Origin: Apium graveolens
Lineage: Eukaryota; Streptophyta; Magnoliopsida; Apiales; Apiaceae
NCBI RefSeq assembly: GCF_009905375.1
Contig: NC_133653.1
Coordinates: 81,728,911 to 81,792,910, forward strand
DNA length: 64,000 nt
Direction: 5' to 3'
Shown here: piece after piece, positions 33,457 through 58,565 of the stretch
How the letters are laid out: each line of letters opens with the position of its first letter
Numbering within the stretch: position 1 is the stretch's first letter
The notes under the pieces: model-generated
Seen by the model: the letters and a program-made list of their open reading frames with translations, nothing else
What the model was told of the DNA's origin: nothing
Database searches by the model: none
Position numbers and translations under genes: made by a program

Positions 33457-33461
33457 GATAA
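33457..33461. other. Target site duplication, left (GATAA)
   Basis: GATAA directly precedes the 5' LTR. The same five bases follow the 3' LTR at 54911-54915. This proves a single insertion spanning 33462-54910. Confidence 0.9.
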
Positions 33462-34664
33462 TGTAAATCCTTAGTTTTGATGATCACAACACAGCAAGCC
33501 ATCATGTTGTTATTTGAGAATGTTTGCAGGATATAACAGCTTAATGTCATTGCTGTTTAAGTATCATGACAGCAAGCTATCATAAGACAGTAATCTATTT
33601 CAGCAAGCTATGATCACGATTGTCAGAATAACAGCAAGCCAAGATGCACAGTTCAGATTCAACAAGGAAGTCGAATTTCATGGAGATTTTATAGGATCTT
33701 CAAATATATCAGTTGTAAGGACTTCTCTAATATAATATACGTGCATGATATATAGAGAGCTCATTTATAAAACGTTTTTACTCATTCAAATTGATTTCCT
33801 AAAGAATAGGAGTTTGTTTTTCTTTCAAACTCTATCTTCTATCTACTGATTAAAATGTTTTATACTCTACAAAATAGAAGAGATATTTTCTGTACGTTGA
33901 ACTTCTTTCTTTCTCTTCTATCTAACGTACACATGAACGTTGGAAACCATCCTAATGATCTTAAACGGTAGAATTGGATTCTAGCCGTTGTAAGTTGTTG
34001 AGAAGGTTTCAAATGTTAATGTGTGGTTATATAAGAGGTTTTCTTGCAGTTTTATGGGGACGACTTTGCAAGCAAGAACACATACAACTCCTGATCTTTA
34101 TTGATTTCAAAATACTCTCGAGCTCTAAATATATACACGTGTTTTATCTTAGAGAGAGTTTATAGTTTGAGTTGTAATCTTTATCATTGATTTGTATTGT
34201 TCAAATTGTATTGATTAGTTGCTGGATAAGTTGGCTAGGGAAACAAGGGTTTAGTGGTACTTGCTAGAGGAGTTTGTACTACGGGGTAGTATAGTACTTA
34301 GAGAGCAGGTTCTTAAACAGGGTTTCAACAAGCCATTATCAGCAGCTGGGATAAAGGGAGATATATTGTTGTATCTTGTAGTTGTAACCTTCATTGATCA
34401 ATAATATATTCTCTTACCAAGTTGGTAAGGGACCAGGACGTAGACCATAGGGGCTTAGGGGTCGAACCTGGCTAAAATTCTTGTGTGTTCTATTTACTTT
34501 CCTGCACATTATTTTCTGCATTGCATTTAGTCATCTCAGCTTACTATCATTGTCAGATTATAGTTCAGTTGGTAAAATCTCAGTAAGCTATTATCGGGTA
34601 AAATTTAAAAGTAATCCTAGTTAGCCATAATCACCTATTCACCCCCCCTCTAGGTGTAATTTCA
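33462..34664 (+). repeat. 5' LTR of the copia element (1203 bp)
   Basis: Begins TGTAAATCC and ends GTGTAATTTCA, just before the primer binding site. A TATATAAG at about 34030 is a good TATA box for the element's transcript. AGCAAGC occurs four times at 33493-33640. The short ORF at 33974-34165 is present in both LTRs but has no protein features. Confidence 0.95.
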
Positions 34665-34678: not shown

Positions 34679-34723
34679 TTTGGTATACTAATCTTTCTGT
34701 AACAGGAATAGTATTCGATCGAA

Positions 34724-36760
34724 ATGGCTGACAAATATCCCGAAGGAACCTCAGATTACCGAGCACCTCTCTTGCTTGGTACAGAAAACTATAACTGGTG
34801 GAAAGGTCGCATGGAAGTGTATCTATCCAGGGAGCCACTAGCTTTGAGAGTTGTTCAGAAGGGTCCTTTTGAGTTCAAGGACAAAGAAGGCAAAGTGAAA
34901 GACGTTGATGATCTTACAGAGGCTGAACTAATCAAATACAGCTTCAATGGAAAGGCTAGGAATTCTCTCATGAATGGGTTATGTCCTAGTGAATGTGATA
35001 AAGTCTCTTCATGCAAATCAGCTAAAGAGATATGGGATACTCTGGAATTGTATCACGAAGGATCCAAGAGTTTAAGAAAGGTGAAATTGAGTAAACTAAT
35101 GAATGAGTTTGGAAATTTCAAGCTTCAAGACGGAGAAACTATTCGAGAAAGTCAAGCTAGATTGCAGATAAATTTGAATGCCTTAAAGCAGCTTGGCAAA
35201 CATATCCCACAAGAGGAAATCAACATGAAGATACTTAGTGCTGTGCCATTTATCTATGAACCAAAGGTAACAGCTCTAGAATCCTCTCCAACTATAGATA
35301 CTATGGATCAATTGGCTGTTTTTGCAGAATTGGAACAATTTGAAAGCAAAATCAAGGAAAGCCAATCAAGTTCTATACAAGCTCCAGTTGCTCAAATGAA
35401 GCAATTAGCTCTTCACACTAATGATAGCTTACTGAAATCTGAAGATGAGTCAGACGAAGAACTAGCTTTAATATCCAGGAAGATCAGAAAGATGATCGAG
35501 AAGAAGAACAAGCTGAAAAGAGATAAAGGCAGATTTTCCAACAACAAGAAGCCCAACAAGGATTCTAAAGATCAGACATGCTTTGAATGTGGAAAGCCAG
35601 GCCATTATAAGCGGGACTGCTACAAATTGAAGTCAAAACAGCAAACTGTCTTCAAGGATAAGAAGAAAGCTAAAGCTCTAATGACTTGGAGTGATGATGA
35701 CTCGGTTTCCAGTGATGATTCAAGTGGAGACATGGTCAATCTTGCCCTAGTTGGACTTGATGATGATTCTGTTCGAGGAAATTCAGAAAGTGGATACCTA
35801 GAAAGTGATTCAGAAGAAGATCAGAGTGAGGTAAACTCTTGTAAATATAATTTATCTTCTGAAAATATTGTTTTGGAACCACTAACCATGCAGGAATGTA
35901 AGAATGTATCTATGGGTGAATATTATTCTCTTAAAGCTGAAAATAGCAAGCTAAAAGAGAAGAATAATTATCTCAAGACTATGGTTCAAGATTTGATGAG
36001 CAAAGTAGATACTTGGATTGACAAGAAGGTACCTACACAAGCTGACAAAGAGGCTGAAATCAAGGATCTTCAAGCTAAAGTTAGTCATGTGGAAAACTTC
36101 AACAAAATTCTCCTCAAAAGAAACAAGACTCAATTAATGGAGATCACAGAGTTAAAGAAGGAGATTGAAGCAAGGGATGAATGTTTGGAGCTGTTCAAAC
36201 TCAGAGAATCAATAGATGCAACACCTTCAAATCAAGCAGAAGAACCATCTCAGCAAGCTGAAATCATAAGTCAGCAAGCTGAAAAGATTGATCTGCTCAC
36301 AAAGGAAGTGGAGGATCTGAAAAAGGGCATGGGATCGTTTGTTCAAGGAGAAGAAAGTCTCAAATCTATGATGAACAACACAAATATTCCATTGGTCAGA
36401 GAAGGAATTGGAATGAATGCAAACAAGAAGGATAAAACTCTAAGATATGAAGGAAAACATGGGATACCCTATGATTATGCTATGCCTTGGAAGATATGCA
36501 ACAGATGTGGAAAGAAAGGGCATCTTGAAAAGCATTGCAAAGTTCAGAATGGACAAAAATCATACCATGGAGGAAACAAACAGAAAACAGCTTACTATGA
36601 TCAGAATGGCAGAACAAAGACAGCTTACCATCATCAGGCTGGCAGAGTTAAATCACCTAGATTTATCCAAAAATGGATAAAGAAATCTGATTTACATGTT
36701 TTATATGTTTTATCTGCTAACCATGTCGGACCCAACAAACTTTGGGTACCAAAAGGTTGA
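34724..36760 (+). CDS. gag: Copia gag polyprotein (678 aa)
   Basis: The ATG at 34724 lies soon after the primer site and gives the typical SIRE gag start (LLLGTENYNWWKGRMEVYL). The capsid region covers about residues 1-230. There are two CCHC zinc knuckles: CFECGKPGHYKRDC near residue 286 and CNRCGKKGHLEKHC near residue 590. Between them is a long acidic and coiled-coil stretch (about residues 390-560) with QQAE repeats. The protein packages element RNA in virus-like particles. The frame ends with TGA; 21 bases later a TAG follows in the same frame, directly before the pol methionine. Pol is therefore in frame with gag but behind two stops. Confidence 0.93.
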   Translation: MADKYPEGTSDYRAPLLLGTENYNWWKGRMEVYLSREPLALRVVQKGPFEFKDKEGKVKDVDDLTEAELIKYSFNGKARNSLMNGLCPSECDKVSSCKSAKEIWDTLELYHEGSKSLRKVKLSKLMNEFGNFKLQDGETIRESQARLQINLNALKQLGKHIPQEEINMKILSAVPFIYEPKVTALESSPTIDTMDQLAVFAELEQFESKIKESQSSSIQAPVAQMKQLALHTNDSLLKSEDESDEELALISRKIRKMIEKKNKLKRDKGRFSNNKKPNKDSKDQTCFECGKPGHYKRDCYKLKSKQQTVFKDKKKAKALMTWSDDDSVSSDDSSGDMVNLALVGLDDDSVRGNSESGYLESDSEEDQSEVNSCKYNLSSENIVLEPLTMQECKNVSMGEYYSLKAENSKLKEKNNYLKTMVQDLMSKVDTWIDKKVPTQADKEAEIKDLQAKVSHVENFNKILLKRNKTQLMEITELKKEIEARDECLELFKLRESIDATPSNQAEEPSQQAEIISQQAEKIDLLTKEVEDLKKGMGSFVQGEESLKSMMNNTNIPLVREGIGMNANKKDKTLRYEGKHGIPYDYAMPWKICNRCGKKGHLEKHCKVQNGQKSYHGGNKQKTAYYDQNGRTKTAYHHQAGRVKSPRFIQKWIKKSDLHVLYVLSANHVGPNKLWVPKG

Positions 36761-36781
36761 GTTGTTTTATTTGTTTTGTAG

Positions 36782-38413
36782 ATGTGTCTTGCCGCTCGAG
36801 TCAAATCAACTCAATGGATTTTAGATAGCGGATGTACTAGACATATGAGTGGAGACAAAGCACAATTCTTGAGTCTTCAGATGAAAAAGGGTGGAAGAGT
36901 GACTATTGGTGATAGAAAAACTCTTCAAATTCTTGGCAAAGGTAAAATAGGTAATAAACACATTTCAATTGATAAAGTTCAATATGTTAAAGGCCTTAAA
37001 TATAATCTGCTTAGCATAAGTCAGTTATATGATGATGGTCATACTGTTAACTTTGGTATTGATAAGTGTATTATTACTATTGGTACTAACAAAGTCACCC
37101 TAGTTGCTAGAAGGGAAGGAAATATATATATTTTGGACTTTGAGTTGCAGAAAACAGCTTGCTGTCTTGCTGCAATAGACACTGATCCTTATATTTGGCA
37201 TAGAAGATTGGGTCATGCTCACATGGACTTACTTAACAAGCTTTCAAAGAAGAAGCTAGTCAGAGGTTTACCCAAAATCAAGTATGTCAAGACTGAGGTG
37301 TGTTCGGCATGCCAATTAGGCAAGCAAATTAGAAGTACTCACAAAGCAAAGAAAATGGTATCTACTTCTAAACCCTTAGAACTTTTACATTTAGACTTAT
37401 TTGGTCCAGAAGCTTATAAAAGTATAGGAGGTAAGCAATATGGTTTTGTAATTGTTGATGATTATTCTCGTTTTACATGGGTATTGTTTCTTAGAACTAA
37501 AGATGCTGCTTTTAATGAGTTTGAGAAACTAATTAAATTACTTGAGAATAAGCTCAATACAAAGCTTGTAGGAATAAGGAGTGATCGAGGTGGTGAATTC
37601 CAAAAAGACTTTGTTACTTATTGTGAAGAAAGAGGAATATCACATGAGTTCTCGGCTCCAAGGACTCCACAACAAAATGGTGTGGTGGAACGCAAGAATA
37701 GGTCACTGCAAGAGACAGCAAGGACTTTGTTGCAAGAAAGCAAGTTACCTAGAAGTTTTTGGGCAGAAGCAGTCAACACAGCATGCTATGTTCTGAATAG
37801 AGTATTGATAAGACCTATTTTGGACAAGACTCCATATGAATTGCTCAAGAAAAAGAGGCCCAACATCAGTTACTTCAGAATCTTTGGCTCAAAGTGTTTT
37901 GTGCTCAAGACAATTGGTAATGATGGTAAATTTGATGCTAAATCTTATGAAGCTATTTTTCTTGGTTATTCTATGAATAGTAAAACCTATAGAGTTTATA
38001 ATTTGTCTAAGCATATTGTTGAGGAATCTATAGATGTTACTTTTCAAGAACCTAACAATGATCTTCCAAGAGACGAGGAAGATGATGCAGGTGAAGCTGG
38101 ACAACAGCAAGCTGAAACAGAGAAGGCTACTCCAAAACAGCAAGCTGAAACAGAGACTGATTCTGGAAAACAGCAAGCTGAAATTGAAACTGCCTCAGGA
38201 AATCAGCAAGCAGAACCTTCTACTCCAGTTGATGATGCAATTGTAAAGATGGCAAAGATGACTCTTGATGGTCCTACAGGAAATAGAGCAAAGGATAAAA
38301 TGCCAATCTATGATGGTGAAGACTTAGCTCCTCCATCTAAGATAAGGAAGACTTCACATGAAGATATTGGAAAGCATTCATTGCCAAAAGCTACACGGAC
38401 AGTGAAGAATCAC
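36782..38413 (+). pseudogene. pol: Copia pol part 1: protease and integrase
   Basis: Same frame as gag. It starts with the copia aspartic protease (WILDSGCTRHMSG) and continues with the GAG-pre-integrase zinc region (HRRLGHAHMDLLNKLSKKKL, CSACQLGKQ). The integrase core follows, with D in LLHLDLFGP, D in IRSDRGGEF and E in PQQNGVVERKNR, so the DDE triad is complete. A later linker has repeated QQAETE units. CACTA element 1 interrupts the gene at 38414, after a CAC that is duplicated on the far side. Frame analysis then runs into transposon sequence and stops at 38479. Confidence 0.92.
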
Positions 38414-39159
38414 CACTACACCATAGATGGCCTATCGCAATGGTTTAATCATGTGTGTTACAAAATTATGTTACCTTAGCTATGCTCATTTTAGCCTACC
38501 GCAACGTAATATTTTTGATGTTACCATAGCCTTTGTAACATGTTACTATAACTTCAAAGTGTTGCATACGGTAACATGTGGAAACTTATGTTACAATAGG
38601 GCGTTAATGGGTAAAAAAATAACATTTAACAAAAAATAAAATATATATAATTATTTGACTTCAAAATTAATCAATTTTGACAATATAATTAAGAAATAAT
38701 ATTAATATTAGCTAAGATTGATAAAATAATTTTTTTGTTAAATTTTGTAAATTATACTAATTAGTTACTGATAATTTTTTATTTATAAAAAATTTGAACA
38801 ATATTTATACTTAAAAATTTACTAAAAAATAAAAATAAAATGAAATTAGCATTGTTGGTTATCATTGGGCTCTCGACCAGGCGGGGAGAGTAGACTCAAA
38901 ACATTTGGAGAAGCGTTTGAACAGCCCGGGTAAAATTTGGACAAGTCAAATTTTTCCAATCTAAATACCTCTCGGTCTCTCTCTCTCTAAACAGCTCTCA
39001 GACAAGGGTTTTATATTCTTCCTCTCAACTTTCAGTTGAACCGAATCTAATCATCTACCTCAGCTTTTAGTTGAACTGAATCTAATCATCTTACGGATTG
39101 GAGATTCAAATAAATTGGGGGTTTACATCAATTGACATCAATTGAATCCATAATCTGAA

Positions 39160-39268
39160 ATGGTTGGTAGATTAAACCACGTCGCTTCTTGTATTATGGC
39201 AGCAAATGGTGTCGGCGTCGGCATGGGTCTCCCCGTCGACAAACGCATCATCTCCGATAAGCCCGTAA
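39160..39268 (+). pseudogene. Captured exon-like sequence, unidentified (CACTA 1)
   Basis: An ATG at 39160 after a CT-rich leader opens a short reading frame (MVGRLNHVASCIMAANGVGV and on to SDKP) that ends at a GT. A second exon-like block follows an AG at about 39445-39536 (ERVAQILVHSDLVNSLLLAD), with a stop codon just before it in the same frame. The composition is protein-like and the borders look like splice sites, so this is probably a captured host gene. I do not recognise the protein. Confidence 0.4.
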
Positions 39269-39897
39269 TCTCCTCTCTCTCTGTCTCCACCATCTCTCTC
39301 TCTCCCCCTCCCTCCCCCCCTCCCCCATCTCTCCCCCTCTAATAATGTATATTTCTGTTTAATTAATACGATCTAATTAGAAAACTGAAATTGGGCATTT
39401 TTGAAATCCTAATTAGAAATATTTTTTTCCCGTTGTTGGAAGGCAGCCATAAATTGAACGCGTTGCTCAAATTCTGGTGCATTCAGACCTGGTTAATTCT
39501 CTTTTGCTTGCTGATTCTGATGAAAGACGTAATGATGTAAGTTTAGTTAATTTGATTTTAGATTAGATGCCTTCAGATATATCAATCGACACAAGGATAG
39601 AACAACCTACTTTCGGAAAGGTGCTTTTGGGGAGTAGAGGGATGTTTGTGGATAGATATATGTACTCAATATGTGTAGTATTATTATTTGCCTATACATT
39701 TTTCTTAAATATCCTCTTTATCCTGGCACTGACATGCTTGAATCTTAAGAATTAACTTTTCTTAATAGCATCATTTATTAGAATTTAATTGAGATTGGAC
39801 TAGCCATTAGATATGGTTTATTTGATCATTTGTATTCGGTACAATTATGTACAAATTATCAGGTGCAATTTTATTTATGATCTCTGCGTTAGTTCAG

Positions 39898-40374
39898 GGG
39901 ACTAATGTGGAAGGAGGAGTTGGAATTAAGCTTTGTGGACTTCATGAAGGATGGGGCACAGTGGCTGGTGGATAACACTGACATAAAACTTGATGGTAAG
40001 TAGAGATGCCATCAAATCATTTCATCACTTTGGTAAACGTTTGCGGTTTAATAAAATTATCCAGTACTTGGTTATTTAAAGATATTTCAATTCATATATA
40101 TAGTTCGTATCTGAAGTTTTTCTCTTTTTCGCATTAAGTTCTTATCTGAGCTAAACAATTATGTGGCTTACAGTCTTATCTCGTATAGTGCACAGTACAA
40201 AATATACGTCTTCTGCTAACAATGCATACTTATGTTGAAAAAGAGTGGTGTTACTTGTGTACTAACACAATTCTTCTGTTCTGGAACTCAGGGATTGATT
40301 ATTTATCTGTTGCTGCTTTTGATGATATTATTTCTGCTCACATTGTTTACCTTGAAAGAAGATCTTTATTGCTG
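39898..40374 (+). pseudogene. Captured cyclase / kynurenine formamidase-like fragment (CACTA 1)
   Basis: Two exon-like blocks are joined by a GT...AG intron. The first (about 39898-39993) reads [20 protein letters not shown] followed by VDNTDIK. The second (40292-40374) reads IDYLSVAAFDDIISAHIVYL followed by ERRSLLL and a GT. Together these resemble the middle of plant cyclase-family proteins (kynurenine formamidase-like). The N-terminal metal-binding part and the C-terminus are missing, so no active enzyme is expected. It lies in the same orientation as the transposon and downstream of its leader-like region. Confidence 0.6.
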
Positions 40375-40582
40375 GTATAAATTTGGGCAAACTACACATC
40401 ACTTTACTATATGAATAATAGACTTGCATAGTTCCCTGTCTCTGTTTGACACACACAAACACAAAGTTGTGATACACATTTTCTTTTATACAAGTAAAAA
40501 GTATTTGTAGCTGGCACAATTTATCTTTAAATATGTATCTATATGCTATGGGGACTCTGATTCCATCACTTTGTAAAGCTAA

Positions 40583-41527
40583 TTAGAAAAGACAACCACC
40601 GGTAGATGCATTATGCTTCACTATCTTTGATGTGCCCTTGAAGTCACAAGCTTCCACATCTTCATTTTTAATCTGAAAATAATTGTTAAATGTATACGAT
40701 GCCTTATGCGCTTCATCCAAATTGCTGCATGATCCTCCATCCTTCAAGCTGGTATAATCACCCATTGTACATGCATATTGTACATTGGATTCTGCATCCT
40801 TAGGATTCTTGACTTTGTCGGTGTCCAACACACACCATTGCTGCTCAAGATACTGCACATTCTTTGCTGGCATTTTATCGTTCCCGTTTCCTGTAAAGTC
40901 TAGTGAGTACTTTGGTTGTCCGTCGTATCTAAAAATCCCCCAATGGCGCTCAAATGGGCCCAGGGCTACACTTTTTAGATTTTCATCCATTAGACTGAAA
41001 AGGTAGCACTCAATGTAGCCAGGATAGAGAGGAGTTCCTTTGTTAGTTGCCATTTTTTCTGAAAAATCGGTCGTAGAATTTTTTAGCCATCTTGGCATTA
41101 GCAGTTGGCTTTTTTCAAAGACCAATAAAGAGTATCAATATTTGCATCAAACATGTTGTTGTAGCTAATGTTTTTGTCTTGAACAGGTTTGGCCCCTTCA
41201 TCGAAGAAAGCAAATTGGACAGGAAAATCTGGGTTCTGGTAAAGACTCAGAAAAGGGTAGATGTTAACAAGGAACATAGAGTCGTTGTCACTGAGAAATT
41301 TCGCAATTTTACCTATAATGTCTTTGATGTCGCTGCGAAAATGACCATCACATGGAACACCTGAACCTCATTCATATACATCAACATTTTGTGGGGTGGT
41401 TACTTTTATATTATTATGGCCAGCTTCATTCAAAGCCTTTTGAATGTTTTCCATAGCAGGTAACAATGTCTTTAGGTTAGAACCATTATAGGCTTTTAAG
41501 AACAGTTCATTTCCTACAGCAACAGAC
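40583..41527 (-). pseudogene. Captured GH17 beta-1,3-glucanase with X8 domain, fragment (CACTA 1)
   Basis: The minus strand encodes the second half of a glucan endo-1,3-beta-glucosidase (family GH17). It starts after an AG with [15 protein letters not shown], which contains the acid/base glutamate in GNE. It continues through NIYPFLSLYQNPDFPVQFAF and PGYIECYLFSLMDENLKSVA to an X8 (CBM43) carbohydrate-binding domain (QQWCVLDTDKV, YACTMGDYT). Lesions: an in-frame TGA at about 41364; loss of about 25 residues around 41095 that should contain the nucleophile motif (GEVGWPTDG in relatives); and a nearby frameshift. It resembles the glucosidase 8-like type. It cannot be an active glucanase. It is antisense to the transposon. 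Confidence 0.85.
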
Positions 41528-43088
41528 CTGGAAAATCATTGAAATAGATTCATCAGATTTCTATATGACAGAAGATATATAGCTCATATCCGCTAGGAGA
41601 ATGTTTTATTTAATGATCTTTGGAGTTTATCCTGATTCTTATATTCATTTCTGTTCTTGTGGTCATTTTTTTGATTGATTTGATACTTGATTAAATGTCC
41701 TGTGATTATTCTTCAATTCAGTGTATGTGTGTAAATTCTGGGTACACTACACTGTATAAAGATTCTCAAAATATTAATGCTTTATTTTTACACCCCTTTT
41801 TCTTGATTTTCTTGATATTTGTTTAGTGCCCATTTGTTTTTGTTTTTAATTATTATTGAAATTTGTTTGTGATATTGATGAGTTTGTGTAGGTCTCCAGA
41901 TGGGTCTGGCTTTCTTACCTCTACTGATAATAACACTTTTCATGGCTTCACCTTGTAAGTACACTTGTAGCCTCTTTCATATGAACTGAACACACACAAT
42001 TGGGTATCAACACGAATGATCTTGTCAATTTTCAGGGTCCAAAGTTATTTTACATTTCTGTTACGCAGCATCCTTCATTTAAATAAATTTTTTATGCATA
42101 GCAGACCGGGGCTGTGCATCCGGACCAAATGCATTTCTAGCCGTGTTGGGAATTATGAAAAATGTGGACAAGATACGCGAACAAAGAGGCTTTAGGTCAC
42201 CAGGGTTTTGGGTCTAATTAAATGATCTCTCCCGGGAAATAATTTTAACGCCCTTTTCGGGGCCTTGCCATAGTTCATAATAATATGAGAACACATATAT
42301 TGTGTGTCTTGATTGTTTTTATATGTTCATATATATATTTGGATTTGCTGGATAGATGTAAACTGAACTTAACATCATTGACTCACAGGAAGGCAGAGGT
42401 AACTTGGAGTTAAAATTAGAGAAGCAGATGAGACGCAACATGATGTTAGCGGTTCAAAGCCAGTTACTGAGATTTTGATGATTAGTTAAAAGTCGGTGCT
42501 TTTAATTGTAGTGATAAGGGTGCATTTGTATTAGCCAGTTAGCTTGTCTTGTTATTTATACCTAGTTAGAGGTACAAGGTTGTATTATTTTTGGTTATTT
42601 TGTTGACTTGTATAAAAAACAGGTTTGTGGCATGTTCAATTTACAAACAAATTTTGTCAATTTTGTTTTAGAAATTTGATATATTAGGTACTTCAATGTT
42701 ACAAAAAAATTGGTATAATATAATACCAATCATTATAAAACTCTTACAGTAGGAAAAAAATGTTACAATGCTTTTGTGGCCCGCGTGTGGGGCCCACAGG
42801 TGGGGTCCACATGTAGGGTCCATTTTTTTTACAAATTCTAAGTACAAAGGTAACATACATAGTATGATACTATAGACATACTTTGATGTTACCTTTGAAG
42901 CCTATTGTAACATAAAATTCAATGTTGCAGCAGGGTAAAGGGGATGTTACCTTAGGGGCCAAAGGTAACTCGAAAAAAAACAACTTAATTTTTATGTTAC
43001 CTTAGGGCTTTTTCTGGCTGTGGTAACACTTTTTTGGGCCTGTTGTAACATTTTCTTGGTGTTGCTGTAGGCCATTTATGGTGTAATG

Positions 43089-43633
43089 CACCCTCCAGAA
43101 CAGGTTATTGGTGATATTTCTGATGGTCTCAAGACAAGAAAAGGCACTGCAAATTTTTGTGCTTATGCTGCATTTTTAGCTCAAGAGGAACCCAAGAATG
43201 TCAAAGAAGCACTTGAAGATGAAAATTGGATCACGGCTATGCAAGAAGAACTCAATCAATTCGAACGATGTGATGTTTGGGAACTGGTCAAGCCACCAAA
43301 GGATGCTTCAATCATTGGTACAAAATGGATTTTCAAAAATAAAGTGGATGAATTTGGTACTGTTACTCGAAATAAAGCAAGGCTCGTAGCACAAGGGTAC
43401 AACCAACAAGAAGGCATTGACTTTGATCAAACTTATGCTCCAGTAGCTAGATTGGAATCAATTAGGATGCTTCTTGCTTATGCATGCTACAAGAAGATCA
43501 AGCTACATCAAATGGACGTCAAAAGTGCTTTTCTTAATGGAATTCTGGAAGAGGAAGTTTATGTTAAGCAACCCCCTGGTTTTGAACATGAACAACATCC
43601 GGACTATGTTTACAAGCTCAAGAAGGCATTATA
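43089..43633 (+). pseudogene. pol: Copia pol part 2: N-terminal half of reverse transcriptase
   Basis: Reading resumes right after CACTA 1 in the copia pol frame (HPPEQVIGDISDG). It covers the start of RT: WELVKPPKDASIIGTKWIFK, RLVAQGYNQQEGIDFDQTYA and MDVKSAFLNGILEEEVYVKQ. It is interrupted again at 43634 by CACTA 2, inside the codons for KKALYG. The copia sequence itself looks undamaged here, in keeping with a recent transposon insertion. Confidence 0.92.
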
Positions 43634-45074
43634 CACTACACCATAAATGACCTATTGCAATGGTTTGATCAAGAATGTTACAAAGTTATGTTACATTAGA
43701 TATGCTCACAGTAGCCTAATGCAACATAGGACTTCTCATGTTAGCATATGCGTTGGAATATGTTACCATAGTTTCAAAGTGTTACATACTGTAACATCAA
43801 AAACTTATGTTACAATAGGGTATTAATGGACAAAATATTATCATTTTACAAATAATTTAATATATATAATTGCTTGACTTCAAAATTAATCAATTTTTAT
43901 AATATAATTAAGCAATAATATAAAAATATAACTTCGATCAAATAATTAAATATTATATATTTATTTTTAATTTTAAAGTAATTGCAAATTTAAAATCTAT
44001 TATAAGCAATTTTTAAAACAAAAGTATAATAAATAATCATTATATTTGATTTTAAAATTAGTTAATTTTGATAAAATGAAATTTATTGTTTAAATTTATA
44101 AACTGTACTAAAAAAAGATTTTTTATTAATACAAAAGTTGAATACTATTTATAATTAAAATATTATTAAAAATATAAAACTAAGGTAAAATTTCAATTTT
44201 TGGATATTGGTTCAGGCGGGCTAAACTTGACAAGCGGGCTATCTTCTTTTGACAGGGCGGGTTAAAATTTCATCAAATCAAAACACTCTCTCTCAAAACC
44301 TACCTACCTTCTCTTATTCTTCTCTGGTCACCTCTCTCTTAACTCTCTCCGGTTCTCATTCTCTCTCACATATCTTTTAATTAAAGTCGATTTAATTTAG
44401 TTAAAAGCTACGTTTTTACAGATCCATGGCAATGGAGACTACTTGAACTAATTTGAGCCTCAAACAAAGCTAGGGATTTATGTTTGAATTTGGGGTTTTT
44501 GATTTTTTGTTCTTTTTTTGTTAAACTCTATTTGTTCTTGTACTAATTTGATTTTCTCTCTTTATTCCAGGACTAATTAGGGGGCGAATTAGCTTCGGGG
44601 TGGAATCATTAGTCGTGTTGTTAAGTTTGTTGGATAATCTTATCTCTAATCTGTTTATTCCTCTATTAAGTGGATCCATGTTTTATGACCTGTGAGTTAT
44701 CTCCCTCTTTTATTTCTCTTTTTTTTGTTATTCATGTGATTATAGTTTTAGTATGTATAATTTTTAATACAATAGTTAAGTGCTTTACTAGTATAAATTT
44801 ATGTTGCGATTTCATTATGAAATTGTTAAGTAATTATGGAATGGGATAATACTGAGGATTTTGTTGTTCAAGTGAATGAGATTATGATTGTATTTATTTG
44901 TAATTTTCTAATTTATCCTCGATTAATTATTTTGTTTCTAGAATTTATAGTGTATGTATAATTTAGTTGAAAGTAGAGCGATTGTCATCGGATTTTAGTG
45001 GTATTGATTTCGATAAAATTGGATAAATTAGCTTCATTTGTATATAACATCCTATCACTGATTTTGTGAATCAG

Positions 45075-45708
45075 ATTCCTACCGGAAGATTTAGCAATGG
45101 TCGCCTTGTCACTGATTTTGCCGGTAATTAATCTTGCTAGCCAGTACCTACTTAGCACAAAAAATTTCGCTTTATTACATATCTACTGCTATATATTGTA
45201 TCAGTATTTTTTTTTTAATTTGGTGAACTTGTTTGCTTAGCATCTTATGCTGGTGTGAAGGAAAATTTGCCACCATATTTGGATTCTAGGCTTAGCATGG
45301 ATGAGCTTATGACTGGTGTTAGCTTCGCCTCTGCTGGCTCTAGATTCAACCCTCTCACGGCCAAATTAGACGTTCGTCTCTTCTGACATATCCAAAAATT
45401 GTTCATGCATTATGCATACGAGTGTTATTTTTAGAACACGGCTTAATTCGGATTCTGAAATAAATTTGCAGGGTACAATTTCGATGCCAAAACAAATGGA
45501 AAATTTCAAAGAGTATAAAACAAAGGTTGAAGTAGTGATTGGGACAGAAAGAACTGAAGCTCTGATAGAGAAGACTGTTTATGTAATCAGCGCAGGTACA
45601 AACAATTTTGTTGTCAATTATTATGGTGCCTCTGGTATACGAAGATATAGCTATTCAATTCCTGGCTACTCCCAATTCTTAGTCCAATAAATTCAACAGT
45701 TTATAGAG
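45075..45708 (+). pseudogene. Captured GDSL esterase/lipase exons (CACTA 2)
   Basis: Three exon-like blocks have GT/AG borders: 45075-45123 (IPTGRFSNGRLVTDFA), 45241-45372 (LPPYLDSRLSMDELMTGVSF then ASAGSRFNPL) and 45472-45708 (GTISMPKQMENFKEYKTKVE then VYVISAGTNNFVVNYYG). These match plant GDSL esterase/lipases in order. The first family block with the catalytic GDS serine is absent, as is the C-terminal DxxH block. The block III motif reads GTNN rather than GTND, and a stop at 45688-45690 ends the frame before the splice site. It is a captured, non-functional fragment, but could be transcribed. Confidence 0.85.
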
Positions 45709-46785
45709 GTCAGTATTTACATAACAGTATTATATATATGTGGGTTAATATTAATCAGCATGCATGTCTGCTTTGATAGTTTGCAACTTGCAACTGCAAG
45801 TAGCAACAATTCTGCAGGGTTGTACATGGATAATATTGTTATTCTTACATGATAAATGTTACAACGTATGTTCCAACTTTTTCCATGCATACATGATCAC
45901 TTAATAGTTCTCACTTTTAGGTCGAACATTATTGCATAGAGCTGAATTGAATAACCTATTTGTATCAGAGTCGTGGATACTTACACATGTGGTCGACATG
46001 CATCCATGGAACTACAATTTACTACTGATAGAGACAGAGTGTCTAGATCGATGTATTACATATTTATCTTGTTTATATTTATTGTTTATAACTTAATTAC
46101 GTACAACACAATATATTCGGTGTAAACTTATAGTTGATAATTATGATGTGGTAGAAATAACGTTGGAGCTTTGTAATTGGATATATGTTGTGTGTTTTTA
46201 TGTACATGTAAATGCTGAAATGATTGCTAGATTGGTAGTTTAATTATAGCAGTAGTTAATCAGATATGCTATCGGTAATGTATATATATATATATATCTT
46301 CTTTACTATGTTATCATGTTTTTGTTCATTTTGTGAGTTGATTTAGATGGATATAGGGACTGTTGTGGTTTGTTTTTGTGTGTATAATTTAGTTGATATT
46401 AGAGTGATGTCAGATTGTGTTGTGGACCTTGCGGCGGTATCTTTTCGGATAATTTATATAAATGGGCTGATTTGCTTGTATTTGTTTTCGTGCTCGCGCG
46501 CTTTTTATGTAGATATAGATATTTTAATGATTGTAGGACAGCGGGTTAACTTCTAGCAATTAATCAGAAAGGGTAGTTCAATTGATTTAAATTCGGAACG
46601 GTAGTTGCTAATATTGCATATAAAATTATTGTGTAATTTCTTTGTCTAAAGAGGATAAAGGAAATAGTTATGTTACTTAAATTACAAGTTTTGCATTAGC
46701 TACTAGTACACAGGATTGTCGACTCAGAGAACTTTTGAGGATGCCGTTTTGTGATGAATTATGTGGATTTTTAATTTTTTTGCAG

Positions 46786-46867
46786 TTTGGAAGGAAGGAA
46801 AGGAAAGCAACTGTAGCCCCAACTGTCATTCCTGACCCAGATTACCGGATACCAGTTGTTTTACTTG
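46786..46867 (+). pseudogene. Captured exon resembling a DUF3119-type plastid protein (CACTA 2)
   Basis: After an AG, one exon-like block reads FGRKERKATVAPTVIPDPDY followed by RIPVVLLG, then a GT. This recalls the start of the mature part of plant plastid proteins with a DUF3119 domain. It is only 27 residues and the identification is from memory of the family's conserved sequence, so it is moderate at best. It is in the sense direction of the transposon. Confidence 0.45.
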
Positions 46868-47130
46868 GTCTGTGTGTTAAATGTATTGGATTTTTTACCA
46901 GTTAAATGGCTAAATAAGAGTTCCTGTGATTCTTTTTACTTCATTATATGATAGCAAATGATGGATAGAGCTGGGCAGTTGTTCTTAATTCTTAATTCGA
47001 CTTTCAGCTCAAATATATGGCAAACTTAAGTCTACTAAAGTTCAGGCTGACATTCAATATCTCTTTATATTGGTTATTCCAAAAGTTATAGTTTTCATAA
47101 TAATTTGCTTGATGTTGAAACCTTTTGCAG

Positions 47131-47254
47131 TCCATAGTTCAGTGTGTTCAGTTGGATGGATCTATGATTATGAAGGCAAGAGATGCTACCATCACAAGAT
47201 TTACCGAGGATCCAGATTGCGAGCTTGAAAGCAGGAGGGGTTGCACTTAATATC
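47131..47254 (+). pseudogene. Captured RAD16-like SNF2 helicase exon (CACTA 2)
   Basis: After an AG, the frame reads CVQLDGSMIMKARDATITRF then TEDPDC, the helicase C-terminal core of RAD16/RAD5-type SNF2 DNA-repair ATPases. A small deletion and frame change then follow: the next conserved block, LKAGGVALN, appears in another frame at about 47224-47250. The fragment covers only one to two helicase motifs and cannot be functional. Confidence 0.65.
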
Positions 47255-47968
47255 ATAGTGGCATCACTATTTTTTACCCATCTTCTTTTGCGTACTCCAA
47301 GTGTTTTCGTACTAGATATCAGATGTTTATTTATCGTACGCTAGACTATAGACTATGTACCTATTTTTTGGATTATATGGAGTTGACGGTGAAATATGTG
47401 AAAACTAAAGTAGTATTTGGTGGGGATTTGTGAAAACTGATTTGAAGTTTGGTGGTTCAAATTGTTTATTTGTTGACTTGTATGAAAAACAGGTTTATGG
47501 CATGTTGAATTTACAAACCATTCATGTCAATTTTTTTTGAAAAATATGTTACATTAGGTACTAAAAATGTTACAAAGAAATTGGTATAATACAAAACATT
47601 ACTGTTACAATATGCATCAAAGATAACATTAAAGTATGTCTATAGTATCACATTATGTATGTTATCTTTGCAAACAAATGTGGGCCCCACTGGTGGGCCC
47701 CATTTTTTTTGAAAATTCTAAGTCCAAAGGTAACATACATATTGTGATACTATAGACATAGATTGATGTTACCTTTGATAGCTATTGTAACACAAATGTG
47801 AATGTTACACCAGGGCAAAAGTAATGTTACCTTAGGGGCCAAAGGTAACTCGAAAAAAAGCAACTTAATTTTTATGTTACCTTAGGCCTTTTTTTGGCTG
47901 TGGTAACACTTTTTTGGGTCTGTTGTAACATTTTCTTGGTGTTGCTGTAGGCCATTTATGGTGTAGTG

Positions 47969-49049
47969 ATATGGCTTAAAGCAAGCACCAAGGGCTTGGT
48001 ACAAGAGGCTTAGTAAGTTTTTGATCAAAAATGGCTTCATTCGAGGTAAAATTGATCGTACTTTATTTACTAAGCAAAATGGTAATGATATTTTGATTGT
48101 CCAGATATATGTAGATGATATAATCTTTGGATCCACTAATGATTCTATGTGTGAGTGGTTTTCTAAGTGTATGAGCAGTGAATTTGACATGAGCATGATG
48201 GGTGAGCTCAATTATTTCTTGGGGCTCCAAATTAAACAATCTAAAGATGGAATTTATGTGCATCAATCAAAATATGTCAAGAATTTGCTGACCAGATTTG
48301 GTTTTGACAATGTCAAGCCAAAATCTACTCCAATGAATCAAAATAGCAAGCTGACATCGGATGAAAAAGGTAAAGATGTTGATATCAAGAAGTATAGAGG
48401 TATGATTGGTAGTCTTTTATATCTTACTGCTTCTCGGCCAGATATTATGTATAGTGTTTGTGTATGTGCTCATTTTCAAGCTAAACCTAAGGAATCACAC
48501 TTAAATGCAGTTAAAAGAATATTTCGATATTTAAGTGGGACTATTAATCTTGGGTTATTTTATCCTATTACAAGCACATTTGATCTTGTGGGGTATAGTG
48601 ATGCTGACTATGCAGGTTGTCAAACTGATAGAAAGAGCACAAGTGGTGTTTGTACATATTTAGGACAAAGTCTCGTATCTTGGCAAAGTAAGAAACAAAC
48701 TTCAGTTGCATTATCCACAACAGAAGGTGAGTATTTGGCAGCTGGTAGCTGTTGCTCTCAAATTTTGTGGATGATTCAGACTCTACGAGATTTTGGAATC
48801 AAGTGTGGCAAAGTTCCAATCTATTGTGACAACACTAGCACCATCAACATATCAAAGAATCCAATTAATCACTCAAGAACAAAGCATATTGATGTTCGTC
48901 ATCATTTCTTGAGAGATAATGCTGCCAAAGGTAAGATTGAATTAGTTTTTGAATCTACTGAATATCAATTGGCAGATATCTTTACAAAACCCCTTGGCGA
49001 AGCAAGATTTTCTACCATTCGAAGGGAACTTGGCATGTGTAGTGTATAA
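47969..49049 (+). pseudogene. pol: Copia pol part 3: rest of reverse transcriptase and RNase H
   Basis: The frame resumes directly after CACTA 2 (GLKQAPRAWYKRLSKFLIKN). It contains the RT catalytic box (IYVDDIIFGSTND) and RNase H (VGYSDADYAGCQTDRKSTSG, ALSTTEGEYLA). The stop is at 49049 after RRELGMCSV, the usual copia pol end. The three pol parts show no stop of their own, so damage to pol comes mainly from the two transposons. Confidence 0.93.
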
Positions 49050-49442
49050 TGGCAAGCTATCTTTGGAAATTTGGTAATGTTAGCTTACTATCATTTTTCA
49101 TGTTAGCTTACTATGATTGGTTGTTTAAATGATATTTTTGTGATTAATTTTGTTTTATATGTCACTATCTGTTTAATTATGTTTAAATATTTGCATGATT
49201 TGCTGATTTAATTGTTAAATGATAAAAATGCTAATTGTGGTGTTTTAGATAGATTTAAACTGTTTTAATGATAAGTGTTAGATTTTAGGATATGTATAAT
49301 TTGTTTTTAATTTTTTTATCCTAAACTCTCCCCTAAATATCATTCAAAGAGCACGGGTTAGGGTTTTATTTCACCGCGACTCCACTTTCTCTATCTATCA
49401 CCGCTTCATTCATTCAAGCTCACCAGTTTAGTTCCACTCAAA

Positions 49443-50717
49443 ATGGTTCGTACTACTAGAAATTCTGGTATTCTGGGCAAGCGTACTTCCTCGAAGACGG
49501 ATACTGCAGTTGTCGATTTGGGTCACGAGAGTGATGAAGAAGTCTCTCACACCCCTGATTCGAAGAAACTCAAGCAATCTTTGGCATTTGATTCTCCTGA
49601 TCTCCAACAACGATTCACTGAAAATGCTTTGGATGTTCGTTCTATTATCCCTGGTATCCCGATTGTTGGTAAGCTTTTTCAAAACTCCAGAGCCTTACTT
49701 TTGTTTCAGAATTTGGGTATGGATTCTTTTATCATCGAAATGCCTAAGGTCTACTATCCTGATTTAATTCATGAATTTTATGCAAATTTGATTGAAGATA
49801 AGTATGGAAACTGTATTACCACTGTGCATGACAAGAAAATTAGGCTTAATCCTCCCATTTTAAGTTCTATTATCAAGTTTGAGAATCCCTCTGAGATTGA
49901 TATTTTTACTGGAAAAGGATATGTGTCATTCCCTGATTTCTCTGTGATGGATCAGTTTAAGTTGTTATTAGGATCTGTTAATGATATTGAAGAAAACCCT
50001 CAGCCCCCTTCCACTAGTCAAGTATCTCCTATGGCACATTTGTTGTTTAAAATCTGTAGGGCTAATATTTGTCCTAGGGGTGGGAATAAATCAACCTTTA
50101 GTTGTCAAGATGTTACTCTGGTTTCTATGCTTCTAGCTGGCAGGGCTTTTGATCTATCAAATCTGGTTTTAAAAAATATGATTGCTGCTGTTAATCAGAA
50201 AAAGATTGGACTTCCTTATGGTTTAATGCTTATCAAGGTATTTGAATTCTTTAAGATTGAACTTAAGAGTGCTGTTAAGGTGAGTGTTAAAGAAGTTTTG
50301 GATGCTAAAGTGTTAGCTCAGTCAAATTTACAAATTGATAATGGAGAGTTAGTTAGGATTTTGCCTACCATTGTTCTTGAGTCTCCAGCTGTAACTGAGC
50401 CTTCATCTTTTTCTCCAACTGCTGAGATGATGCACCTGCTTAAGGGTATTCAAGAGGACAATATTCTGCTTTTTGGACATATGGATGCTACTACAGAGCA
50501 AGTGAATCAGCTGAAGACTGAGATTAAGGGATTGAAATATATTATGCTTAACTTCATGTCTGCTGCAAAACCTTCAGCTTCTCAGTCAAATGCAGATTTA
50601 GACACTGACTTGGATGATCTTGTGGATGCTGCTGAAGACTTGGAACAACAGGAGAAGCAAGATGAGTTTCTTTCACCAAAAGAGAATGCAGCTGTCAATT
50701 CTGCTCAGGAAGACTAA
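49443..50717 (+). CDS. Third ORF in the env-like position (424 aa)
   Basis: This intact ORF follows pol by about 390 bases, where SIRE-type elements carry their extra, sometimes called env-like, ORF. The N-terminus is basic, with a possible nuclear signal (GKRTSSK, SKKLKQ). The middle (VYYPDLIHEFYANLIEDKYG, NPPILSSIIKFENPSEID) resembles the domain called putative plant transposon protein, known from ATHILA ORF1 and related plant proteins. I see no signal peptide or clear membrane segment. The C-terminal part has an amphipathic, probably coiled-coil stretch (TTEQVNQLKTEIKGLKYIM) and an acidic tail. Its role is unknown; without membrane features an envelope function is unlikely. Confidence 0.75.
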   Translation: MVRTTRNSGILGKRTSSKTDTAVVDLGHESDEEVSHTPDSKKLKQSLAFDSPDLQQRFTENALDVRSIIPGIPIVGKLFQNSRALLLFQNLGMDSFIIEMPKVYYPDLIHEFYANLIEDKYGNCITTVHDKKIRLNPPILSSIIKFENPSEIDIFTGKGYVSFPDFSVMDQFKLLLGSVNDIEENPQPPSTSQVSPMAHLLFKICRANICPRGGNKSTFSCQDVTLVSMLLAGRAFDLSNLVLKNMIAAVNQKKIGLPYGLMLIKVFEFFKIELKSAVKVSVKEVLDAKVLAQSNLQIDNGELVRILPTIVLESPAVTEPSSFSPTAEMMHLLKGIQEDNILLFGHMDATTEQVNQLKTEIKGLKYIMLNFMSAAKPSASQSNADLDTDLDDLVDAAEDLEQQEKQDEFLSPKENAAVNSAQED

Positions 50718-50756
50718 TCTGTTTTTGATGATATAAGGGGGAGAACTTAGGAGAAT

Positions 50757-50770
50757 TTAATTTCTTTTAA
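50757..50770. repeat. 14-base direct repeat, left copy (flanks CACTA 3 region)
   Basis: TTAATTTCTTTTAA occurs here and at 53370-53383, just outside the right end of CACTA element 3. The two copies bracket the inserted block. It is longer than the 3-base duplication made by CACTA transposition. Confidence 0.7.
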
Positions 50771-51225
50771 TTAACTAACTACAGGAAGCTCAATGAGGTG
50801 ACTACCTTTTTTTACTAACTACAGGAAGCTTCCAAAATATAATGTTGCTGCAACATTACAGGTCAGTCATTCTATGAACATTAATTACTATGATATTGAG
50901 CGTTTTGCATTAATCTACAAGAGAAGTTATTGCTACCTCTTGATCAAGTTATGAACCAGTATGTTTCTCTTATATCAATGTCTAGTGTGCTGGTAATAGA
51001 AGGACTGCCATGAGCAAAACCTATACAGTCAAAGGAGTTTGATAGGATATTGCTGCTATAGAAAATGGTAAGAATCCTTTATTTTTATCATAGCTCTCAA
51101 GATTTATTGATACCGAATGGAGATAGATTAGGTTAATGATAAGTAAATAGCTTAAAATTATCAGTACAATATAGTGTGCGGAAGATATGTAAACATGTAA
51201 GAGACAGAGTGAAACCAAGGGCTAC

Positions 51226-51375
51226 CTCATCAGGACTCTACTCTCCTCGGAGACGACGACCATCAAAGAGAAAGGCAATTGAATTTATGTCAACTGATTC
51301 ACGGTCACAATAAGCACTCATAAGTTTTTTCAATTGGGTACTCCATTTGATCCTGAAAAAGACTTCATTTCCGTC
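51226..51375 (-). pseudogene. Captured SUMO exon (CACTA 3)
   Basis: After a minus-strand AG the frame reads [20 protein letters not shown] then [20 protein letters not shown], the ubiquitin-fold core of plant SUMO. A stop follows RRLRGE, where SUMO has glutamine, and the SPDE after it matches TPDEL. The N-terminal part and the C-terminal di-glycine needed for conjugation are missing. It is a non-functional captured exon. Confidence 0.88.
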
Positions 51376-52084
51376 CTGTACAAATCATCACAATCAATCT
51401 AAATTTTAAAACTTCATTTATATTTACAAACCTAGTTCATACAACCTAGTTAACGAGACTCTGCTCCACATCATCAATTGTATATATCAGAACACTATTA
51501 TTCTAGAAACTAGCAGCAGAAGACACCTTGCCAGGTTAAGCAGGGAGTAATATAAGAAAATTACATTAACTAGCGGTGATTACCTTTCAAACTTAATAGA
51601 TCTTTTAGTTTACTTGGTACATTCTCATTAATGGTGATTACTTCAACAGAAAAAAGACAGGACTGCCGAATGCATGAACACATAAAATAACTAGGTTGTA
51701 CATTTTAATTTTGTAAATTTTAATTCTATACAAATCACAATCTTTTAACACAGAACAATCAACCAAATACCGCAATTTAAATTAAACAATACATTAACCA
51801 ATTTACCCCAAAAAGACACTCGCAAGCTACTACACTTTCGATAAACCCTAATCTACCCTAAGAACACCATCTTACATTTTATCAATTACATTAGATGACC
51901 GTAAGGTACAGGTATTCCTTGGGGGGTAGGAGGGGAGTTAAATCAACCTAGTCACTTATACAGAGTATCATTTATCATCATAGCTAAATAACAATACGAA
52001 CAAAATACCCAGAATTATCACATCTAAGTAACAAAACAAAATAGAGTAAAAAGATTAAAGTCCATGTAACATGATAGGGTTTAA

Positions 52085-52400
52085 ATATACTGTAAGTTAG
52101 CTCCACAACAAACAGAGATTCCTCAGGACCAAACCCGAGAAAGGCATTTGTGTACTTCTCTTCCGGAATATCCCTCTTTCTCAAAAGCTTCATCCCAAAA
52201 CCTTCAGTTTAAAACCTGTAAACATCAAATAAAACACTATTTAACAATAAATTCATCACAACTAACACATATTTGACATACTTTCTTCCAATTAAACAAT
52301 AAACCACATACTTGATAGTGTGAACAAGGTCACCAACACGAGACACAACATGTAAGAACCTGCGCTTATCCTTTTTAGGTCATTCCAACAACTCGCTACT
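52085..52400 (-). pseudogene. Captured glyoxalase I (lactoylglutathione lyase) exons (CACTA 3)
   Basis: The first block (about 52400-52313, minus) reads PKKDKRRFLHVVSRVGDLVH then TIK before a GT. The second (about 52220-52085, after an AG) reads GMKLLRKRDIPEEKYTNAFL then GFGPEESLFVVELTY. These are the start of the first glyoxalase domain, which detoxifies methylglyoxal with glutathione. A TGA replaces the usual tryptophan before PKKD, and a TAA falls two codons after the exon junction. Only a small part of the protein is present. Confidence 0.88.
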
Positions 52401-53369
52401 CGGAACAACAACTGGATTTCAATTAAACGGCATAATTTTAAACATAGATATACACACAGAAAGAAAATAAAAAACTATTTTTTTCAGCAAACAAACAAAA
52501 CTGCAATAAATTGAAATAACTTGGGGAGAGATACAGAAACGAATTGGGAGAAAGAGATAGAGAGAGAGAGAGAGTTACTGCTTACTAGGAGAGTGAAGAG
52601 TGAAAGAATATGATGCTCCTTCGACCCCCAATTTCAATTAAAAACCCCGATTCCAATTAAAAACCCTAACTCGATTTTACTAATATAAAATCCTAGCTAA
52701 TCAAATCATCAATCTTAAGGTAGTACTTTAGGATGATTCGGCTCAATTGAAAGCTGAGAGAGTGTGTGAGTGACGATCGAGAGAGAGATTTTTAGAGTGT
52801 GAGAGAGGGACTGTGTGAGAGAGATGTTTAGATAGGACTTTGAAACTTTACAAAAAACTGCCGCTTCTCCAAAACTTTTGAGCCTGCTTTAGCCCGACTT
52901 ATGGAGAGCCCAATGACATCCCAAATAACTGCTGGCTAATTTCATTTTTTTTTTATTTTTTAATAAAATTTTAAGTTTAAGTAGTGTTCAAACTTTTTAT
53001 TAATAAAAAATTATTAATTATTAATTAGTACAGTTTACAAAATAAAAAAAATATTATCTTTATCTTAGATAATATTAATATTATTACTTAATTATATTAT
53101 CAAAATTGATTAATTTTCAAGTCAAATAATTATATATATTTAATTATTTGTAAAATATTACTTTTTTATCCATTAACACCCTATTGTAACATAAGTTTCC
53201 ACATGTTACTCGTATGTAACATTTTGAAACTATAGTAACATGTTATAAATGTTATGGTAACATCAAAAATGCTACGTTGCAGTAGGCTAAGATGAGCATA
53301 TCTAAGGTAACATAATTTTGTAACCCATGATTAAACCATTGCGATAGGCCATCTATGGCGTAGTGTAAG

Positions 53370-53710: not shown

Positions 53711-53723
53711 AAAAAGGGGGAGA
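53711..53723 (+). other. Polypurine tract of the copia element
   Basis: AAAAAGGGGGAGA immediately before the 3' LTR is the plus-strand priming site. Similar tracts occur at about 50738 (AAGGGGGAGAA, just after the third ORF) and 53670 (TAGGGGGAG). Confidence 0.85.
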
Positions 53724-53724
53724 T

Positions 53725-54910
53725 TGTAAATCCTTAGTTTTGATGATCACAACACAGCAAGCCATCATGTTGTTATTTGAGAATGTTTACAGGATATAAT
53801 AGCTTAATGTCATTGCTGTTTAAGTATCATGACAGCAAGCTATCATAAGACAGTAATCTATTTCAGCAAGCTATGATCACGATTGTCAGAATAACAGCAA
53901 GCCAAGATGCACAGTCCAGATTCAACAAGGAAGTCGAATTTCATGGAGATTTTATAGGATCTTCAAATATATCAGTTGTAAGGACTTCTCTAATATAATA
54001 TACGTGCATGATATATAGAGAGCTCATTTATAAAACGTTTTTACTCATTCAAATTGATTTCCTAAAGAATAGGAGTTTGTTTTTCTTTCAAACTCTATCT
54101 TCTATCTACTGATTAAAACGTTTTATACTCTACAAAATAGAAGAGATATTTTCTGTACGTTGAACTTCTTTCTTTCTCTTCTATCTAACGTACACATGAA
54201 CGTTGGAAACCATCCTAATGATCTTAAACGGTAGAATTGGATTCTAGCCGTTATAAGTTGTTGAGAAGGTTTCAAATGTTAATGTGTGGTTATATAAGAG
54301 GTTTTCTTGCAGTTTTATGGGGACGACTTTGCAAGCAAGAACACATACAACTCCTGATCTTTATTGATTTCAAAATACTCTCGAGCTCTAAATATATACA
54401 CGTGTTTTATCTTAGAGAGAGTTTATAGTTTGAGTTGTAATCTTTATCATTGATTTGTATTGTTCAAATTGTATTGATTAGTTGCTGGATAAGTTGGCTA
54501 GGGAAATAAGGGTTTAGTGGTACTTGCTAGAGGAGTTTGTACTACGGGGTAGTATAGTACTTAGAGAGCAGGTTCTTAAACAGGGTTTCAGCAAGCCATT
54601 ATCAGCAGCTGGGATAAAGGGAGATATATTGTTGTATCTTGTAGTTGTAACCTTCATTGATCAATAATATATTCTCTTACCAAGTTGGTAAGGGACCAGG
54701 ACGGGGGTCGAACCTGGCTAAAATTCTTGTGTGTTCTATTTACTTTCCTGCACATTATTTTCTGCATTGCATTTAGTCATCTCAGCTTACTATCATTGTC
54801 AGATTATAGTTCAGTTGGTAAAATCTCAGTAAGCTATTATCGGGTAAAATTTAAAAGTAATCCTAGTTAGCCATAATCACCTATTCACCCCCCCTCTAGG
54901 TGTAATTTCA
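53725..54910 (+). repeat. 3' LTR of the copia element (1186 bp)
   Basis: Nearly identical to the 5' LTR. I counted seven substitutions and one 17-base deletion (near 54703, relative to 34440-34460). The end GTGTAATTTCA is followed by the GATAA target duplication. Confidence 0.95.
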
Positions 54911-54915
54911 GATAA
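54911..54915. other. Target site duplication, right (GATAA)
   Basis: Matches 33457-33461 exactly. Confidence 0.9.
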
Positions 54916-58562: not shown

Positions 58563-58565
58563 CCT

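Follow-up and report, generated by a model that had tools for sequence, protein, structure and literature searches.

Three probable Pack-CACTA elements carrying host-gene fragments in a young copia retrotransposon of celery

Introduction

The Pack-CACTA elements of Arabidopsis and maize combine CACTA termini and target-site duplications with host-gene fragments, often from several loci, and lack a transposase (PMC8903248). The proposed route by which such Pack-TYPE elements acquire DNA is the joint mobilisation of neighbouring insertions whose inner ends have been deleted or mutated (PMC8903248, PMC13317346), and a further, undiscovered capture mechanism may exist (PMC13317346). Here we describe three neighbouring CACTA elements, E1, E2 and E3, in one copia retrotransposon of celery (Apium graveolens, assembly GCF_009905375.1). 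They lie in a 64,000-nucleotide stretch of contig NC_133653.1 (positions 81,728,911 to 81,792,910 of the forward strand), hereafter the window, to which all coordinates refer. The primary paper behind the Pack-TYPE capture model is reportedly Catoni 2019.

Several described systems resemble this locus. Soybean Tgm-Express1, a 5.7-kb CACTA element, contains exons with introns from five host genes that are unrelated to one another; its insertion site is an intron, and its sequence is spliced into transcripts of the interrupted gene, whereas the elements here interrupt copia pol (PMC1947982). In wheat 3B, 140 events of CACTA-mediated gene capture are reported, and some captures there are transcribed and under selection, unlike the glucanase and SUMO cargo here, which is broken (PMC4290129). 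CACTA elements of Chenopodium also contain gene fragments (PMC8978399). A soybean CACTA element combines a 3-bp duplication, ATA as in E2 below, with subterminal repeats that form asymmetric stem-loops; En/Spm depends on TNPD and TNPA, and these can be provided in trans (PMC2613891). Within the Apiaceae, carrot has the Tdc1/TdcA1 CACTA family (PMC3224100, PMC2613891); the TdcA1 transposase is represented among carrot expressed sequence tags, and five transcripts are likely chimeras in which transposase is fused to other coding sequence (PMC3224100).

Pack-CACTA elements and multi-gene capture by CACTA elements are well documented (PMC8903248, PMC4290129, PMC1947982, PMC13317346), so the statement in a preliminary description of this sequence that such a family is rarely seen so clearly was overstated. 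What is unusual here is that three diverged members lie in one young element and that one of them has lost its right end, at the junction. Neighbouring insertions, the proposed capture route in Arabidopsis and maize (PMC8903248), are also found at this locus, where two of the three neighbours are co-oriented, the third lies in the opposite direction and lacks an end, and all sit in a young retrotransposon. By analogy, the arrangement resembles the published capture model of tandem insertion and end deletion. Judged by title among the matches listed, no paper dealt with gene-carrying CACTA elements in Apiaceae or CACTA clusters in Sirevirus, which is weak evidence, and a text search with the terminus letters gave, on the same basis, no transposon paper.

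CACTA ends shared by three elements

E1 is a 4675-bp non-autonomous CACTA element with cargo (38414-43088, plus strand), bounded by the termini CACTACACCATAGATGGCCTA and TAGGCCATTTATGGTGTAATG and by an exact duplication of CAC (38411-38413 on the left, 43089-43091 on the right). E2 follows after 545 bp in the same direction and is likewise non-autonomous with cargo (43634-47968, plus strand, 4335 bp), flanked by an exact duplication of ATA (43631-43633 and 47969-47971). Both begin with CACTACACCATA and end with its inverse, with one mismatch in E1, whose right end reads CATTA; the 27-nucleotide arms of their terminal inverted repeats are 85 and 89% complementary. E3 (50771-53365, minus strand) is an inverted CACTA element with an intact left terminus at 53365; its right end is lost, and its estimated extent is 2595 bp. 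When the whole window was scanned with the 21-base terminus and sites with up to seven mismatches were listed, exactly five sites had zero to two mismatches, namely both ends of E1 and E2 and the left end of E3, while the remaining sites had six or seven. The preliminary description, which had reported matching termini and exact 3-base duplications for E1 and E2 and a single terminus for a third element, was correct on these points.

The similarity extends inward from the termini. Over the first 430 bases, the left ends are 90% (E1/E3), 75% (E1/E2) and 76% (E2/E3) identical, and the right ends of E1 and E2 are 81% identical over 450 bases; between E1 and E3, left-end similarity spans about 630 bases. 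With the outermost 574-634 bases at the left and 510 at the right set aside, the interiors gave no BLAST match to one another at an expect value (E) of 1e-4 or below. Clustered subterminal repeats occur in both orientations: TGTTAC or GTAACA is present 6-11 times per end, against shuffle means of 0.33-0.77 and maxima of 3-5 (1000 shuffles each), and 39 of its 66 occurrences in the window fall in the 1699 bases that these ends comprise. The right subterminal region of E2 also contains an inverted repeat with 75-nucleotide arms (47596-47799, 85%). An exact search of viral contigs with the terminus gave no match, as expected for plant DNA.

Identity between the ends, the CACTA termini, the 3-bp duplications (exact CAC and ATA, with a probable TAA at E3) and the shared subterminal repeats together rule out that the ends are unrelated repeats. 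Very likely, a single family of non-autonomous Pack-CACTA elements is represented here by three diverged members, E1, E2 and E3, inserted in a young copia element. The preliminary description had pictured a family that repeatedly captures exons and re-inserts. A single family with gene fragments, sharing its terminal regions, fits that picture; its left ends differ by 10-25%, however, so these are three separate members and not one element re-inserting.

The host retrotransposon is young

The complete copia element spans 33462-54910 and has long terminal repeats (LTRs), a perfect 5-bp target-site duplication, gag, and integrase ahead of reverse transcriptase (RT). Its 5' LTR (33462-34664, plus strand, 1203 bp) is preceded by GATAA at 33457-33461, and its 3' LTR (53725-54910, plus strand, 1186 bp) is followed by GATAA at 54911-54915. 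All parts of the coding region lie on the plus strand: gag, with Retrotran_gag_2 and a zinc knuckle (34712-36757); the protease and integrase part of pol, with gag_pre-integrs, rve and SH3_retrovirus (36782-38413), broken by E1; the first part of RT, between E1 and E2 (43092-43633); and the second part of RT with the RNase H region (47972-49046), which matches RVT_2 profile positions 121-243 (query 47970-49046).

In silico removal of the elements restores pol. Joining about 33 bases of flank from each side reopened the frame at E1 (...RTVKNH/PPEQVIGD..., RTVKNHPPEQVIGD) and at E2 (...KALY/GLKQAPRAWY..., KALYGLKQAPRAWY). Residues 1-56 of the predicted celery protein P0001 match 43467-43634 (95%) and residues 56-199 match 47970-48401 (96%); because this protein is continuous across the junction, P0001 represents a relative without an insertion at the E2 site. 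None of the relatives compared spans the E1 site.

The two LTRs differ by substitution at 7 of 1186 aligned sites, with a further 17 gap columns (Kimura two-parameter distance 0.0059; the BLAST identity of 97.85% counts gaps). At substitution rates of 1.3e-8 to 7e-9, this distance corresponds to about 0.2 to 0.4 million years. The host copia is young, and the nesting of the elements in one young copia, as first described, agrees with the LTR distance, the GATAA duplication and the restored frame at E1 and E2. All seven LTR substitutions are transitions, the pattern of deamination in methylated DNA, so even this short age is possibly still an overestimate.

LTR identity dates only the integration of copia, and the CACTA elements might have entered it before its last retrotransposition and been copied along, in which case the LTR age would not date them. 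We regard this as very improbable. The cargo keeps introns in copia's sense direction (in the cyclase-like gene and, by reading, in the GDSL-like gene), and the element would have been copied at 21 kb with pol broken twice; because of these introns and breaks, copying together with the elements would require help in trans and no splicing. The celery homologue without E2 shows merely that this relative has no E2.

Host-gene fragments fill the interiors

Between their CACTA ends (one end in E3) the elements hold host-gene fragments and no match to a transposase, the composition of Pack-CACTA elements. Seven fragments have tool support, six of them firm and one, the GDSL-like gene, weak, within 4675+4335+2595 = 11605 bp. 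At least seven fragments in about 11.6 kb, different host-gene pieces in each element and no transposase had been proposed from the first inspection, and all three statements hold.

E1 carries most of the named pieces. A fragment of a PDR-type ABC transporter (39597-39743, plus strand) matches PF08370 (PDR_assoc) above cutoff (E 4.9e-13). It is followed by two adjoining exon pieces of a cyclase-like gene, together with the intron that separates them (39896-40377, plus strand), assigned by sequence matches to PF04199 relatives. Among the matches listed, their nearest named relative is a celery cyclase-like protein, 82% identical over 61 residues and scoring E 3.9e-23 in a full search; they match 111 of the 251 proteins compared. 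These 251 comprise the best 120 of 276 from the cyclase search, the best 120 of 2652 from the glucanase search (filled by glucanase matches) and 11 more. A GH17-X8 fragment resembling glucan endo-1,3-beta-glucosidase 8 (40496-41529, minus strand) matches X8 and GH17 in Pfam, both above cutoff (E to 1.6e-18), and matches poorly below about 40583. Aligned with a Heracleum protein of 473 residues, this glucanase begins at residue 108 and is 77% identical over 336 columns; it contains two in-frame stops and two frame changes and lacks 21 codons, among them VGEIGW, which we take to be the motif with the catalytic glutamate of GH17. Among the matches listed, Heracleum (77%) and carrot (75%) are nearest by identity, and the top score belongs to a longer Malus protein. 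A SABATH (S-adenosylmethionine-dependent carboxyl) methyltransferase fragment (42083-42232, plus strand) scores above cutoff for Methyltransf_7 when its frame is read through (E 1.8e-7); its stop-free piece falls just under (E 1.8e-6).

Two exon-like pieces of a further E1 gene, delimited by reading (39160-39264 and 39453-39536, plus strand), matched no Pfam family and none of the 251 proteins. A possible WD40 exon, also found by reading (41893-41955, plus strand), gave only a PDB match to a WD40 protein at E 0.13; it may be WRAP53-like.

In E2, three exon pieces with introns, their limits set by reading, make up a GDSL esterase/lipase-like gene (45078-45699, plus strand). Spliced, they match PF00657 at E 1.5e-4, with 22.4 bits against a cutoff of 23.6; unspliced, they gave nothing credible in Pfam, and a PDB search of one piece returned a chance match (E 0.87). 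Neither the GDSL piece nor the WD40-like exon matched any of the 251 proteins, which is weak evidence of absence. Two more exon-like pieces of E2 (46786-47244, plus strand, by reading) matched no Pfam family, nothing in PDB (one piece searched) and none of the 251 proteins; here, as for the first pieces of E1, the lack of a match in that set counts weakly as a sign of absence.

E3 holds a SUMO exon with a premature stop (51217-51378, minus strand; Pfam Rad60-SLD/SUMO 5.2e-11, above cutoff; PDB E 1.2e-22) and two exon pieces of glyoxalase I, or lactoylglutathione lyase (52086-52376, minus strand), which match PDB lyases at E 3.8e-27 and 4.5e-5 and no Pfam family. NCBIfam gave no match for three proteins, the methyltransferase and transporter pieces among them.

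Premature stops show that neither the glucanase nor the SUMO cargo is an intact gene, and the other named pieces are short parts of longer proteins; the identified cargo consists of fragments, in keeping with the first interpretation. The glucanase and SUMO pieces, at least, can no longer yield the original protein. An intron is kept between the cyclase exons, and introns are recognised by reading in the GDSL and SUMO regions. Because the cargo keeps introns, its source was genomic DNA rather than mRNA.

The fragments might instead have been delivered by other elements, such as a Helitron or a Pack-MULE, nested in the CACTA elements. Maize Helitrons and rice Pack-MULEs do carry many gene fragments (PMC4290129). 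Apart from the CACTA end regions, however, no inverted pair longer than 20 nucleotides at 80% or more was listed in E1 or E2, in a comparison that did not include a search for Helitron ends; weaker AT-rich inverted pairs were listed, one of them of 18 nucleotides at 83% around the GDSL region. Delivery by nested elements is in our judgement very unlikely, and capture by the CACTA elements themselves is preferred.

All six frames of E1, E2 and E3, with stops read as X, were compared with Pfam, and none of these 18 translations matched a transposase family; the elements are therefore non-autonomous at most. In this comparison E2 matched nothing but SCIMP (0.013, below cutoff); this hit, Thioredoxin_16 in E3 (0.03) and, from a separate Pfam comparison, Fn3_Dep-1 in E2 (0.16) were taken as chance matches.

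An inverted element with one CACTA end

At the other end of E3 no CACTA terminus was found, the best candidate having 12 mismatches in 31 bases. Nor is there a convincing remnant within E3 of the right end of roughly 500 bp: compared with the right ends of E1 and E2, the E3 region showed no more than weak and short similarities, and the strongest of these (E 5e-4) falls within its left end. The flanks define the insertion more closely. The copia sequence upstream of E3 ends with TTAATTTCTTTTAA, and the identical 14 bases resume at 53370, against a longest shared word of 11 in 300 single-base shuffles. Once one TAA is removed, the flanks form a perfect adjacent tandem of 15 bases; for this reason TAA (50768-50770 on the left, 53366-53368 on the right) is the probable target-site duplication of E3, and 50771 its broken edge. 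This edge carries two direct copies of a 20-bp sequence that differ at one position (50771-50790 and 50811-50830) and may be repair filler. The right end of E3 was probably lost later, at the junction of element and host, by failed excision or repair.

E3 may, alternatively, never have been a complete insertion with a TAA duplication: a rearrangement could have placed its left end at 53365, or its end could have gone by ordinary deletion independent of transposase. The presence of a single terminus fits this course of events, and filler-like repeats at the edge are compatible with any end-joining repair. The perfect 15-base tandem, however, is what a 3-bp insertion without loss of flank would leave, and it opposes a rearrangement or a deletion that entered the flank; it does not oppose a deletion that stopped by chance at the edge. 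We hold this alternative to be somewhat unlikely and favour the later loss of an end from an inserted E3.

A model of insertion and capture

In the favoured account, copia would have integrated first and three family members would then have inserted separately. An autonomous relative would provide a CACTA transposase in trans, which would recognise the shared ends and move the elements by cut and paste. Host genomic DNA would have entered their interiors at an earlier stage, most likely by joint mobilisation of neighbours lacking inner ends.

The present arrangement bears on how such joint mobilisation could occur. Because E1 and E2 share a direction and lie 545 bp apart, their outer ends could move both elements and the intervening piece of copia RT as a 9.6-kb unit. 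E2 and E3 would present two left ends, since E3 is inverted, and the left end of E1 with the right end of E2 is the sole standard end pair among neighbours. The lost end of E3 faces its neighbours and is broken at the junction of element and host. As a tentative and rather unlikely extension, the locus could be a snapshot of the capture cycle, with diverged Pack-CACTA members gathered in one retrotransposon over a period shorter than about half a million years, E1 and E2 movable as a unit, and the neighbour-facing end of E3 lost where transposase would cut.

Several points weigh against the account as a whole. The Pack-CACTA family is described here from three members in one 64-kb window. The LTR age limits the insertions only if they came later than copia's last copying, and the duplication and mechanism of loss at E3, both probable, depend on a repeat of 14 or 15 bases. 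The cyclase and glyoxalase pieces have no Pfam family and are identified by sequence matches; the GDSL identification lies below Pfam's cutoff and counts weakly; and three further exon-like pieces (two in E1, one in E2) are named by no tool. Pfam applied to broken frames can also overlook transposase remnants.

The locus offers a clean example of a known route by which gene pieces are shuffled in plant genomes, and the entry of multi-gene fragments into CACTA elements has been argued from a limited set of cases. In relatives or populations, a young array of three elements could reveal the empty site, single insertions, the end deletion or the fused unit. If the insertions post-date copia, elements with ends up to 25% different were mobile in about one recent period, a point relevant to how much variation in its ends a CACTA transposase tolerates.

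Features of the retrotransposon and its surroundings

The host copia, which by its lineage features is probably of Sirevirus type, shares with such elements the order of gag, integrase and RT, a Met-tRNA-like primer site (TGGTATCAGAGC), a purine tract (53711-53724, upstream of the 3' LTR) and an extra open reading frame (ORF) after pol. Its gag and pol lie in one frame, with two stop codons between them (36758-36781; TGA at 36758, TAG at 36779).

The extra ORF (49443-50714, plus strand; Pfam PF20167) occupies the position of env-like ORFs, and its best named matches, among those listed, are from celery (Apium graveolens) and carrot. Its identity is 55% to one copy from celery, P0001, and 69% to a second, P0005, across 157 residues. 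The RT parts of both copies are 91-97% identical to the copia here; the RNase H part of P0001 is 80% identical and a second part of P0005 56%. By these comparisons, the extra ORF seems either to have been exchanged or to evolve at a higher rate than RT, with gene-model errors a further possibility.

Parts of Ty3/gypsy type lie on both sides of the window, at 1515-3556 and 59288-63631 (gag, protease; RNase H, integrase; Transposase_28). Ordinary host genes adjoin repeats at 21837-28945, namely a cupin (germin-like), a phospholipid-flippase P4-ATPase and a family 17 glycosyltransferase. Dense tandem arrays with periods of 40, 79, 99 and 139 bp occupy 58026-59071, adjoining the gypsy parts.

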